NCBI RefSeq assembly: GCF_916618755.1
Contig: NZ_CAKAKB010000003.1
Coordinates: 186,001 to 250,000 of the forward strand
Source of the DNA: Actinotalea sp. Marseille-Q4924
GTDB lineage: Bacteria; Actinomycetota; Actinomycetes; Actinomycetales; Cellulomonadaceae
Direction of reading: 5' to 3'
DNA length: 64,000 bases
Part shown: piece after piece, positions 56,300 through 60,304 of the stretch
How the letters are laid out: every line of letters starts with the position of its first letter
How positions within the stretch are numbered: the first letter of the stretch is position 1
Notes under the pieces: generated by a model
Database searches by the model: none
What the model was told of the DNA's origin: nothing
What the model saw: the letters and a program-made list of their open reading frames with translations, nothing else
Translations under genes and position numbers: made by a program

Positions 56300-56884
56300 T
56301 CAGATGTAGATCGCCGGGTCCTCCACGAGCTCGGCCGCCGGGGCCGCCGCCGGTCGCGTCCGGATCACCGCGGGCACGCCCACGGCGGTGGCCTCGGCGG
56401 GGACGTCCTTGACGACCACCGCGTTGGCGCCGATCTGCGCCCCGTCGCCGATCCAGACCGGGCCGAGGATCTTCGCCCCCGCGCCGACGACCACGCGGTC
56501 GCCGAGCGTCGGGTGGCGCTTGCCCCGTCGCATGCTCTTGCCCCCGAGCGTGGACCCGTGGAACAGCACGACGTCGTCGCCGACGACCGCCGTCTCGCCG
56601 ATCACGACACCCATGCCGTGGTCGATGAACAGCCGTCGGCCCAGGTGGGCACCCGGGTGGATCTCGACGCCGGTCGCCGCCCGGGCCGCCTGCGACAGCA
56701 GACGGGCCGGGATGCGCAGCCCGGGGCGCTGCCACATGCGGTGCGCCAGCCGGTACACCCAGACGGCGTGAACCCCGGGGTAGCCCAGGGCCACCTCGAG
56801 CCGCGACCGCGCCGCCGGGTCTCCGTGACGTGCCGCGTCCAGGTCCTCGACGAGGTCCTGGAGGAAGAGCCAGACAGGGCGCAT
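56300..56884 (-). CDS. cysE: Serine O-acetyltransferase
   Basis: Makes O-acetylserine from serine and acetyl-CoA. The 194-residue protein is the short EpsC/CysE form. The left-handed beta-helix hexapeptides run from about 75 to 175 ([20 protein letters not shown], 20 residues; [37 protein letters not shown] is the end). Catalytic His are in IHPGAH and IDHG. It begins four bases after the cysK stop. Confidence 0.95.
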
Positions 56885-56888
56885 GCGA

Positions 56889-57824
<936 letters not shown>

Positions 57825-57951
57825 GGTTGTCCTCGTCTCGCTGGGCCTCGTGGGGCGGGTGGTGGCGGGACGCACGGTGTGCCGGCTGCTTCGTGCCGGC
57901 GTGCCTGCCGGATGCTCCTGGCTGCACAACCGTGCGGCGTCATGGGGAATT

Positions 57952-57967
57952 CCGCGGTGTGCCGCGG
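57952..57967 (-). promoter_or_regulatory. Second leader hairpin upstream of cysK
   Basis: CCGCGG pairs with CCGCGG around TGTG, 13 bases downstream (on the minus strand) of the main leader hairpin. It may be an alternative fold partner. Confidence 0.4.
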
Positions 57968-57980
57968 TGGCCGGGGCTCG

Positions 57981-58031
57981 AGCGCTGGCGCGTCCTGGGG
58001 GTGCGCGGGATCCCGCGCGTGCTCCAGCGCT
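57981..58031 (-). promoter_or_regulatory. Nested hairpin directly after the poly-Cys leader (attenuator candidate)
   Basis: Outer stem AGCGCTGG (57981-57988) with CCAGCGCT (58024-58031); inner palindrome GCGCGGGATCCCGCGC (58003-58018). It starts at the base next to the leader stop codon, so a ribosome at the stop or stalled on the Cys codons would control whether it folds. Confidence 0.6.
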
Positions 58032-58142
58032 CTACGGACAGCAGCAGCCGGCGACGCACCCGCAGGGGCGGCCGACCGTCGGGAGCGGGCACGACGGCGG
58101 GGCGGCGGAGGGCCGACGGGTGGGGCGAGCGCTCGAGCTCAT
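58032..58142 (-). CDS. Poly-cysteine leader peptide of the cysK-cysE operon
   Basis: A 36-codon reading frame too short for usual gene calling. The ATG is preceded by GGGAGGAGGAGGC. The end reads P-C-G-C-V-A-G-C-C-C-P and stop (Cys 18, 27, 29, 33, 34, 35). Polycysteine upstream frames that act as cysteine-responsive attenuators are described in mycobacteria. Position 207 nt before cysK and the hairpin at its stop codon fit that role. A TAGGTT hexamer at 58193-58188 may be its -10, without a good -35. Confidence 0.72.
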   Translation of the reverse strand: MSSSARPTRRPSAAPPSCPLPTVGRPCGCVAGCCCP

Positions 58143-58224
58143 GCCTCCTCCTCCCGGCCGTGCGGCGGGTCACCGCTCCTGCGGACGAACCTAGCGGATC
58201 CACCGCCCCCACCACAGCGGACGG

Positions 58225-59820
58225 TCATGGTCCGTCGTCGGGCCCGGGCGCTGCAGGAGCGCGGCCGGCGTCCTGCTGGGCCGCTTCGGCCCGGACGGCG
58301 GGCAGCTCGACGTCCACGCACGACATCCGCACCGGGTCGCCGCCCGCGAGCGCCGTCACCCGGGCGGCGGCCTCGGACAGCCGGTCCTCGGGCAGGGCGC
58401 CGGCGCGCACCGCGGCGACGAGCGCGTCGCGCATCCCTCGCGCCTGCGAGCCGTCGGTGGTCAGCGCCGCGTCCGCCCCCGCCTGCACGGCGAGGACCAC
58501 CGACTCCGGGAAGTCCCACCGCTGGTGCACCGCGCCCATGCCGAGACTGTCGGTCATGGCGACCCCCTCGAAGCCCATCTCCCGCAGCGCCGCGTACGCG
58601 GCGGGGCTCAGGCTGGCCGGCAGGTGCGGGTCCAGGGCGCGGTAGCCCAGGTGGTTGAGCATGACGACGGGCACGCCGTCCTCGACCGCGCGGGCGAACG
58701 GCACGAGGTCGGTGCGCAGGAGCTCCCCGAGCGACGTCTCGACCACGTCGCCCTCGGCGTGGGTGTCGGTCACCGACCGGCCGTGGCCGGGGAAGTGCTT
58801 GACCGTGGGTGCCACGCCCGCCGATGCCAGGCCCCGCCAGTACGCGGCGGCGTAGCGGGTCACCACGTCGGGGTCCGCGCCGAAGGCCCGGTCACCGATG
58901 ACGCCGTCGGCCGGACCCTCGTCGAGGTCGACGACCGGTGCGAGGTTCAGCGTGACACCCAGCTCGGCCAGTCGCGTCCCGGACGCCGCCGCGAACTGCT
59001 CGACCTCGGCCGGCGTGCTCGACGCGGCGAGGGACCGCGGCGACGGCCCGGCGCCGACGACCTGCCGTGCGAGGGCCACGCGACCGCTCTCCTCGTCCGT
59101 CGACACCACGAGCGGACGCCCGTGCGCGACGTCCATGCCGGCCTGGAGCCCGGTGACGAGGTCCGTCGTCTGCCGCGCCGTGCGGACGTTGGAGGAGGAC
59201 AGGAACACGCCGCCGACACCCAGCTCCACCACCTCGCGGGCCAGGTCCTGGTCGGCGCTCGTGACGCCGGGCAGACCGACGACGAGGACGGCGGCCGCCC
59301 GTTCCTCCAGCGGCGCCGGGACGCAGCCCGGTGCCGCTGGGGACGACGCCGCCGCCTCGGACCCCGCGGACGGCTCCGCGCCGGCCGCCGTCCCCGACGT
59401 CGTGCCGGGCGTGGTCCCGGTCGCCGCCGCCGGGGCGGGCCCGGGTCCCAGGCCCGCCGGTGCGGGCAGGGTGCCGCCGGGCAGGGGGTCGGGCGGGGGG
59501 TCGGCGACCGCGGACGTCAGGTCCGGGACACCCGGCGCCACGGCGGTGCCGTCCGCGCCCCCACCGTCGGGCGCGGAAGACGGAGGCGCTGCCGTGGTGC
59601 CCGGGGCCGCGGCAGCGGGCACGTCGGTACGGGCGGCGCCCGCACCGGATGCCGCGATCGCACCCTGCGTGAGCCCCGCCACGAGGAGGAGGCTCGCCGC
59701 GGCTCCCGCAGCGAGCGCGTGCCCGGGGGACCGGGCGTCGCCCGAGCGGTGTCGAGGGGGACCGGCCACGGCGCGCGGACGGGACGACCGGTGCCGCCGC
59801 GCGGCAGGAGCGGGTCCCAT
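58225..59820 (-). CDS. Exported GH3 beta-N-acetylglucosaminidase-like hydrolase (NagZ type)
   Basis: A 531-residue exported or anchored protein. A basic N-terminus and hydrophobic helix (about 35-58) are followed by a 110-residue Ala/Pro/Gly/Thr linker (about 60-170), then the GH3 barrel. STDEESGRV, KHFPGHGRSVTDTH (the NagZ catalytic Asp-His dyad lies in TDTH) and VAMTDSLGM with the nucleophile Asp are present. It probably releases GlcNAc from cell-wall fragments. Leaderless -10 TAGGGT precedes the ATG by six bases. Confidence 0.9.
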   Translation of the reverse strand: MGPAPAARRHRSSRPRAVAGPPRHRSGDARSPGHALAAGAAASLLLVAGLTQGAIAASGAGAARTDVPAAAAPGTTAAPPSSAPDGGGADGTAVAPGVPDLTSAVADPPPDPLPGGTLPAPAGLGPGPAPAAATGTTPGTTSGTAAGAEPSAGSEAAASSPAAPGCVPAPLEERAAAVLVVGLPGVTSADQDLAREVVELGVGGVFLSSSNVRTARQTTDLVTGLQAGMDVAHGRPLVVSTDEESGRVALARQVVGAGPSPRSLAASSTPAEVEQFAAASGTRLAELGVTLNLAPVVDLDEGPADGVIGDRAFGADPDVVTRYAAAYWRGLASAGVAPTVKHFPGHGRSVTDTHAEGDVVETSLGELLRTDLVPFARAVEDGVPVVMLNHLGYRALDPHLPASLSPAAYAALREMGFEGVAMTDSLGMGAVHQRWDFPESVVLAVQAGADAALTTDGSQARGMRDALVAAVRAGALPEDRLSEAAARVTALAGGDPVRMSCVDVELPAVRAEAAQQDAGRAPAAPGPDDGP

Positions 59821-59832: not shown

Positions 59833-59880
59833 GGGACTCGGCGCCGGGACGGCGCGGCGAGCGAGAGCGGGAGCGGCGGG

Positions 59881-59951
59881 AGCGGGCGACGGGAATCGAA
59901 CCCGCGTAGCCAGTTTGGAAGACTGGGGCTCTACCATTGAGCTACGCCCGC
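59881..59951 (-). tRNA. tRNA-Gly (UCC anticodon)
   Basis: The acceptor stem GCGGGCG/CGCCCGC, anticodon loop CTTCCAA on CCAGT/ACTGG, and T arm GCGGGTTCGATTCCCGT are seen. Length is 71 nt; CCA not encoded. Confidence 0.95.
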
Positions 59952-60049: not shown

Positions 60050-60123
60050 CGGGATGTGGCGCAGGTTGGTAGCGCGTCCGCTTTGGGAGCGGAAGGTCGT
60101 CGGTTCGAATCCGTCCATCCCGA
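60050..60123 (+). tRNA. tRNA-Pro (UGG anticodon)
   Basis: The acceptor stem CGGGATG/CATCCCG, anticodon loop TTTGGGA on TCCGC/GCGGA, and T arm TCGGTTCGAATCCGT-type are seen. A TACGCT hexamer at 60035-60040 is a likely -10. It stands before tig, a common actinobacterial order. Confidence 0.95.
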
Positions 60124-60304
60124 CCCTGGTGCCCACGCCCGGTGCCGTACGATCGGGGCGCCGCGCGCGTCACCTCGGCGTGCCTGCGCGTGGGCCACGA
60201 GGACCGTCACCCCCGCCCTGCCGCCACCCGCGGCGGGCACGTGGCGAGCACCGCACGAGTCGGGGACCGCCCCCGGATCCGTCGAGCCCTGGGAGACCAC
60301 TGCT

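Follow-up and report, generated by a model that had tools for sequence, protein, structure and literature searches.

The question raised by this locus is whether a short, cysteine-rich reading frame in front of cysK-cysE in Actinotalea sp. Marseille-Q4924 senses cysteine through the ribosome that translates it, and by what RNA device such a signal could reach the operon. The window, i.e., the whole stretch of DNA analysed, comprises 64,000 nucleotides, and all coordinates refer to it. The original prediction, made from the sequence alone, described a 36-codon frame with a strong ribosome site and six Cys codons, five of them in the last ten, followed by a nested hairpin and, further downstream, by cysK-cysE. 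The genes and the frame are as follows.

56889..57824, minus strand: cysK, cysteine synthase A (NCBIfam TIGR01139, 450.9 bits, above the cut-off)
56300..56884, minus strand: cysE, serine O-acetyltransferase (NCBIfam TIGR01172, 231.1 bits, above the cut-off)
57830..57835, minus strand: Shine-Dalgarno (SD) sequence of cysK, CGAGGA (from the sequence)
58032..58142, minus strand: Cys-rich leader ORF of 36 codons with ATG start and TAG stop (from the sequence and the ORF translation)
58144..58155, minus strand: Shine-Dalgarno sequence of the leader, GGGAGGAGGAGG, one base ahead of the ATG (from the sequence)

The frame (MSSSARPTRRPSAAPPSCPLPTVGRPCGCVAGCCCP) was found at 58142-58032 of the minus strand with the ribosome site and the number and placement of Cys codons described, and both downstream genes were identified by NCBIfam models above their cut-offs. 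A gap of 400 nt separates cysK from the next upstream gene (58225-59820, minus strand), which lies in the same direction as cysK and whose product is beta-N-acetylhexosaminidase-like, with a score under the cut-off of that NCBIfam model. Just past this gene lie tRNA-Gly(TCC) (59879-59951, minus strand) and tRNA-Pro(TGG) (60050-60125, plus strand).

Conservation was studied in 122 distinct cysK upstream regions including the window (80 named loci and further related loci), counted after the removal of eight duplicates among 130 loci. Some loci were matched from CysK residue 2–4, and their distances are off by a few bases; related genomes are not independent, and the counts given are not evolutionary events. 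Of the 122 regions, 56 contain a Cys-rich, ORF-defined leader; these leaders were called on a short ORF, an SD-like sequence and at least two Cys among the last nine residues, and were not selected on the Cys position within those residues. The string TGTCNNT(AG/GA)[AG]GC occurs in 58 of the 122 regions versus 0.14 expected from base shuffles; being derived from the same sequences, it is a description and not an independent test, for which the covariance search given below is the better check. The string is present in 28 of the 80 named cysK loci and absent in 64 regions, including those of Arthrobacter, Pseudarthrobacter, Terrabacter, Intrasporangium, Janibacter, Knoellia, Agromyces and Rathayibacter. 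The comparison within the Cellulomonadaceae that had been proposed for the Cys codons, the stop and the hairpin was clearly positive, with TGT-CNN-TAG-(A/G)GC preceding cysK in 33 of 37 family genomes and in 18 of the 19 same-genus genomes examined. Three of the family exceptions (G025, G028 and G022) keep the Cys-rich frame, and the fourth (G006) keeps the arms of the hairpin and the Cys codons, with the TAG lost.

The leader is preceded by a predicted promoter element.

58188..58193, minus strand: predicted sigma-70-type -10 element TAGGTT of the leader transcript (TANNNT enrichment among leaders)

In 38 of 56 leaders, versus 7.5 in shuffles, TANNNT is found between positions -75 and -1 relative to the start codon, and a consensus scanner reported no full sigma-70 site in 57800-58350. 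With an SD sequence present and about 39 nt between the predicted -10 element and the ATG, the window leader is by prediction SD-led and not leaderless. Five other leaders (L005, L091, L093, L033 and L109) look leaderless by eye, judging from the distance between the -10 element and the start codon.

The strongest constraint lies at the end of the frame.

58038..58040, minus strand: invariant -2 Cys codon TGT (Cys at -2 in 56 of 56 leaders)
58032..58034, minus strand: TAG stop codon, the G of which is the first base of hairpin P1 (stop counts and P1 pairing)

Codon -2 is TGT in 55 of the 56 ORF-defined leaders; the remaining Cys codons of the same leaders comprise 122 TGC and 58 TGT. The stop codon is TAG in 52 leaders and TGA in 4, and C is the first base of the last codon (Leu, Arg, Pro or His) in 55. 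Cys codons are frequent from -3 to -10 (22 of 56 leaders at -3, 35 of 56 at -4), and the remainder of the peptide is variable. The emphasis placed originally on poly-Cys as the key feature did not hold, as the number of Cys varies and the -2 codon alone is invariant. Since the -2 Cys, the C-first codon and the TAG are kept while the peptide varies, the constraint is on nucleotides (UGU, the C-first codon and UAG) and on the decoding of one Cys codon, not on the peptide. An amino-acid attenuator generally has a leader ORF with codons for the end product, and the Cys codon at -2 in all 56 leaders provides it. UGU-C.. ahead of UAG is almost invariant at 58040-58032 and at the corresponding place in relatives.

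The stop codon opens directly into the hairpin.

58024..58032, minus strand: 5′ arm of P1, GAGCGCTGG (5 of 9 pairs compensatory, 98.5% of cells paired)
57980..57988, minus strand: 3′ arm of P1, CCAGCGCTC (pairing, and arm complementarity compared with shuffles)
58003..58018, minus strand: inner 16-nt palindrome, not generally conserved (sequence, and relatives by eye)

The outer arms, first described as AGCGCTGG (58031-58024) and CCAGCGCT (57988-57981), gain one pair between the G of the TAG (58032) and C 57980, giving a stem of 9 bp. The leader region folds with a minimum free energy of −33.4 kcal/mol (z = −2.68), and 3 of 200 shuffles folded equally well. Covariation was assessed in alignment A1, which holds 44 of the 58 motif-bearing leaders selected for an arm score of at least 20 and a loop of 20–58. 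Five of the nine P1 pairs are compensatory in A1 and 98.5% of the cells are paired; this covariation score was reached by none of 500 shuffles, and sliding the partner arm by 1–3 columns abolished the signal, a result to be taken with caution in that the 3′ arm was itself found by complementarity. The arm score threshold was reached by 48 of the 58 motif-bearing leaders versus 6.7% of shuffles; a slightly different search span gave the 49 of 58 leaders (score of at least 20) used in the U-tract and ribosome calculations below. By score, the 9-bp stem is imperfect in 9 of the 58 motif-bearing leaders and in 5 of 33 within the family. The exact inner palindrome is found in the window alone, with related inner hairpins recognised by eye in the two closest relatives, and it is incidental. 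Hence, the nested hairpin claimed after the frame stands as to its outer stem, of 9 bp and covarying, and its inner palindrome is present but not a conserved feature.

Some leaders depart from this anatomy. In Cellulosimicrobium and Oerskovia flava (L012, L015, L026 and L028), the Cys-rich frame is kept and P1 is unrecognisable by eye; these frames may belong to another kind of device or to one that has decayed. About 200 nt before cysK in G006 (locus L099), CGG replaces TAG, both arms and the Cys codons remain, and the frame continues to a TGA inside the hairpin loop. In four leaders of the same order (L175–L178), P1 seems, by eye, to have a 5′ arm longer by one base and to surround an inner hairpin that the four have in common.

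The inverted repeat AGCGCTGG...CCAGCGCT might instead be a DNA operator for a sulfur-gene regulator, with the Cys frame incidental. The arms are partly palindromic, and the available part of PMC4340878 ascribes an imperfect palindromic motif to NdgR, a Streptomyces regulator of cys genes. However, the spacing of the arms ranges from 9 to 73 nt among leaders, the arms change together in a way that keeps pairing and not a fixed site, and both the -2 Cys codon and the TAG are kept at a fixed register relative to the arm. An operator is, therefore, very improbable.

A covariance model of 86 positions was built with the leader alone as input. It gave one strong match in the window genome (62.9 bits), the next place having an E-value of 0.047. 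At E ≤ 0.01, it matched 70 places, spread over 67 of 297 genomes of the order (L179 coincides with L169, and the two were counted once). Inspection of all 70 showed cysK to follow in 56 cases and not in the other 14. At E ≤ 5 × 10^-4, 55 of 56 places precede cysK. The 14 other places (L183–L190 and L240–L245, of which L240 is not judgeable, its contig ending there) all have E ≥ 8 × 10^-4 except L183 (6.6 × 10^-5), and a true leader, L178, scores E = 0.0017. At least 7 of the 55 cysK-preceding matches come from model-training genomes (the window genome, G007, G023, G029, G034, G044 and G047), and all training leaders were chosen as cysK-preceding; given this overlap, the search demonstrates specificity and reach, not blind discovery. 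The claim that the element exceeds chance rests on the string count and, as the better check, on this search. The distance from the leader stop codon to cysK is 92–296 nt; among those model matches for which it was measured, the stop codon lies 92–236 nt from the CysK match. Four cysK-preceding leaders (L175–L178) go with CysK proteins 59–64% identical and have a wholly different peptide. At least three family genomes (G263, G022 and G031) gave no model match at E ≤ 0.01, although G031 carries the motif. Among 296 genomes of the class, four matches were obtained at E ≤ 0.001, i.e., the window, L192 (preceding cysK), L184 (not preceding cysK) and L193 (no cysK in the locus). The element thus appears to be a feature typical of the window's order, though not of all its families.

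These data also bear on another alternative, that P1 is merely the 3′ terminator of the upstream gene or that the leader is a functionless relic. The upstream gene does lie in the same direction, but the element is tied to cysK by the 55 of 56 model matches just given, and a stop codon within the stem together with a fixed Cys codon would be useless to a plain terminator and is nevertheless retained across several families. We regard this alternative as the least credible of those considered.

Searches of the window genome gave no convincing further Cys leaders. The pattern TGYTGYTGYNNNTRR was found at 17 places versus 78 for the reversed control; 8 of these places end in a stop codon, including the window leader, and the other 7 are unconvincing as leaders. 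Rfam yielded no match on the leader strand in 57500-58500 at E-values up to 10 and, at the gathering score, tRNAs only in seven relatives. A sub-threshold Rfam match to Guanidine-II, on the opposite strand and inside cysK, was rejected.

The influence of ribosome position on P1 was calculated in silico for the 49 leaders, taking the leading edge of the ribosome to lie 12 nt past the first base of the A site. Of the nine P1 pairs, 8.50 are expected to form when the A site is at -4, 6.06 when it is at -3, 0.69 at -2 and 0.00 at the stop codon. P1 formation is thus predicted to depend on where the ribosome stands, being kept at -4 and lost at -2 and at the stop. The only invariant Cys codon is the one at which a waiting ribosome melts P1.

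Comparison among relatives shows the leader ORF, the -2 Cys codon, the TAG, P1, the tie to cysK and the SigR-type site described below to be conserved sequence features; the cysteine response, the sign of P1, the mode of termination and the activity of both promoters are what we infer from them. These features probably form a cysteine attenuator that acts in cis on cysK-cysE through the translating ribosome, supplemented by a redox bypass promoter. A predicted housekeeping promoter would produce a leader RNA with the short ORF ending in Cys codons. With cysteine plentiful, the ribosome would pass the -2 Cys codon and exit at UAG, whereupon P1, begun on the G of the stop codon, would close and cysK expression would be low. 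With Cys-tRNA(Cys) scarce, the ribosome would stall when the -2 UGU occupies the A site, with roughly five bases at the start of the 5′ arm covered by its leading edge; P1 would thereby be blocked and cysK-cysE would be expressed. If the operon is induced on cysteine hunger, this sign, in which P1 represses and the waiting ribosome prevents it, is the simplest one. As the stalled ribosome would itself be the anti-repressor, a competing antiterminator hairpin would be unneeded. Against a model of pure blocking stands the presence of upstream Cys codons (-3 and -4), at which ribosomes would stall with P1 still formed; the relatives that keep the frame with no P1 recognisable by eye likewise count against the simple model.

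These upstream codons are the starting point of a classical attenuator with P1 as the ON structure, in which stalls at upstream Cys codons let P1 form and transcription continue, while a ribosome at UAG masks the 5′ arm and frees the 3′ arm or the loop for termination or Rho. Such a scheme agrees with the frequency of Cys codons at -3 to -10, as stalls at -4 or earlier spare P1, and antiterminators are part of the Trp and Ilv leaders described for actinobacteria in the parts available of PMC1262725 and PMC11109978. It calls, however, for a downstream partner of the 3′ arm, and no such competitor ("region 4") was found beyond chance (mean z = −0.33, 0 of 58 strong); with no enriched partner of the 3′ arm in the 58 leaders, a mutually exclusive antiterminator/terminator pair was not found either. 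Moreover, the invariant Cys codon is the one whose stall destroys P1, which this model should select against. We judge P1 as an ON structure to be unlikely, though less so than the other alternatives.

If P1 represses, the next question is how. A U-tract of at least four T in the ten nucleotides after P1 is found in 1 of 49 leaders (mean number of T 0.92 versus 1.12 expected), and a terminator scanner found nothing in 57800-58350. With U-tracts so rare, most members are unlikely to rely on an ordinary intrinsic terminator. In the exception, L126, a leader with A+T-richer arms, P1 is followed by TTTTTCTTG. The RNA downstream of P1 has a biased composition.

57841..57979, minus strand: untranslated stretch between P1 and the SD region of cysK, rich in C and poor in G, possibly for Rho loading (C 44.6%, G 30.2%)

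Over the 58 leaders, the same stretch has a mean C-content of 47.6% and G-content of 26.8%, with C exceeding G in 58 of 58; the values are 37.6%, 34.3% and 44 of 58 in the upstream control, and 33.6%, 27.2% and 53 of 64 in cysK leaders without the motif. The C-rich stretch would suit Rho, but the bias is shared by motif-less leaders, and the support it lends is weak. In the attenuator reading, P1 would be a terminator lacking a U-tract, or would pause RNA polymerase and thereby favour Rho on the C-rich stretch; it would not act by hiding the cysK ribosome site.

Hiding of that site is the essence of translational attenuation of the mycobacterial type, in which a stalled ribosome would free the cysK RBS from leader structure. 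The amino acid and the pathway are the same as for the mycobacterial polycysteine sORFs, translation attenuation is said to control the cysteine genes of M. smegmatis (PMC13236596, in the part available), and the five leaders that look leaderless fit this picture. In silico, blocking P1 raised the openness of the SD region by more than 0.1 in 6 of the 58 members, for example in L010 (0.22 to 0.52), and lowered it in 1. The median change over the 58 leaders was nevertheless 0.001, no conserved structure linking P1 to the SD was found in three folded alignments (of 3, 9 and 7 leaders), and the stop codon lies 92–296 nt from cysK; in addition, the SigR-type promoter between them would give an mRNA without P1. 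Translational attenuation is, in our estimate, a distinctly improbable explanation.

The promoter in question is made up of two boxes.

57949..57953, minus strand: SigR/SigH-type -35 element GGAAT (GGAAT-N18-GTT, only spacing 18 enriched)
57927..57930, minus strand: SigR/SigH-type -10 element GTTG (sequence pattern, and relatives)

When GGAAT and GTT were searched at spacings of 12–24 in the 58 motif-bearing leaders, 17 pairs were found at spacing 18 and one at any other spacing. Of the same-genus genomes 18 of 19, and of the family genomes 20 of 37, have GGAA(T/C/G)-N18-GTT in the 330 nt upstream of cysK; the strict site is also found in 14 of 66 cysK regions without a leader call, although a few of those 66 do carry the motif. 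The window genome has 11 GGAAT-N18-GTTG sites, including 57953-57927, versus none for the reversed-pattern control, and it encodes a SigH/SigR factor (TIGR02947, 360.2 bits). The consensus and its factor, by which a SigR/SigH promoter is recognised, are therefore both found here; the C. glutamicum SigH consensus is given as GGAAT-N18-19-GTT in the available part of PMC10012870. The ORFs after the other sites encode an Hsp70, a thioredoxin, a ClpB-like ATPase, a glutathione peroxidase, an FMN oxidoreductase, a DUF3073 protein, a solute-binding protein, a luciferase-like oxidoreductase and two MFS transporters; the matches of the luciferase-like protein and the glutathione peroxidase begin inside the profile, so that these sites may fall within genes.

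This site bears on the condition that the original prediction set against itself, a cysK transcription start downstream of 58032, which may be partly true by virtue of the SigR/SigH-type promoter at 57953-57927. As the site is conserved alongside the leader, it is read as a bypass and not as a refutation. Lying downstream of P1, the promoter would yield, under thiol stress, a cysK mRNA without the attenuator, and attenuator-skipping transcripts are likely under such conditions, judging from the sequence. In six loci of Terrabacter, Intrasporangium, Janibacter and others (L030, L032, L035, L036, L040 and L084), GGAAT-N18-GTT with an internal CATAA is present and the Cys leader is not. This distribution suggests that more cysK genes are under SigR-type control than carry the attenuator. 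Less than about 100 nt before cysK in Demequina and its kin (L022, L027, L031 and L104), a small inverted repeat of the GCATCG...CGATGC type is seen by eye, overlapping the place of the SigR-type -35 box.

A further step would be to regard the leader as a distinct attenuator class, with the stop codon in the foot of the hairpin, the wait at a single UGU as the switch, the ribosome as sole antiterminator, neither U-tract nor competing hairpin, and a SigR promoter stacked behind it. We put this forward tentatively, as a possibility with the odds somewhat against it.

The nearest known systems are found in mycobacteria, for which Canestrari et al. in 2020 reportedly described polycysteine leaderless sORFs as attenuators, with sequestration of the RBS as the mechanism. 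Like the window leader, the mycobacterial sORFs have Cys codons clustered at the end, stand before sulfur or cysteine genes and are proposed to sense cysteine through the ribosome. Unlike them, the window leader is SD-led, precedes cysK-cysE and has a covarying hairpin starting from the stop codon, and it shows no general RBS effect in silico and has a SigR-type promoter downstream. The analogy drawn originally is therefore sound in general, as regards the leader ORF with Cys codons, the hairpin and the tie to cysK, and fails for RBS sequestration. By analogy, the window leader would work like the mycobacterial Cys-codon sORF attenuators, as a variant and not as a proven member of the group. 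Leaderless ORFs precede cysA2, Rv0485 and nirA in mycobacteria, as stated in the available part of Shell et al. 2015 (PMC4633059). Cys leader peptides were also predicted by Seliverstov et al. 2005 for cys operons of Mycobacterium and P. acnes and for cbs of B. longum; the accessible sections of that paper (PMC1262725) mention no obvious terminators, suggest Rho-dependent termination and show no conserved terminator-like hairpins for those leaders, whereas here a covarying hairpin occupies a fixed place before cysK-cysE in other families. The uORFC-8-2 motif, in the part of PMC8632094 available, similarly combines a uORF containing Cys codons with RNA structure and a prediction of ribosome-mediated attenuation, but has its Cys codons inside the first stem, an intrinsic terminator with a U-run, and cysS downstream.

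In E. coli, tnaC uses nascent-chain arrest and an inducer, whereas the window leader has no conserved peptide and its predicted signal is a missing Cys-tRNA. What it would share with tna-type competition between ribosome and Rho (cited in PMC1262725, as available) is that a ribosome at the end of the leader ORF decides on the exposure of the RNA to termination. No description of a cysK leader of this anatomy was found in the open-licence literature, over which the search extended, and the available parts of PMC11109978, PMC8632094, PMC6429828 and PMC2965389 contain no report of it.

In the literature covered, cysteine attenuation in actinobacteria has been described mainly for mycobacteria. 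With the leader described here, it would also reach several families in the order to which the window belongs, in a form whose anatomy is different and well defined, and the covariance model offers an annotation handle for a leader for which no Rfam match was found. The leader also provides a sharp test of whether a single codon beside a stop-codon hairpin is enough for control. As a nutrient sensor and a redox-stress promoter are placed in series before the same cysteine genes, one can test directly how the work is divided between amino-acid supply and thiol stress. If the one-codon class proves true, cysteine hunger, through the RNA, and thiol oxidation, through the sigma factor, would be read separately in the control of one operon.
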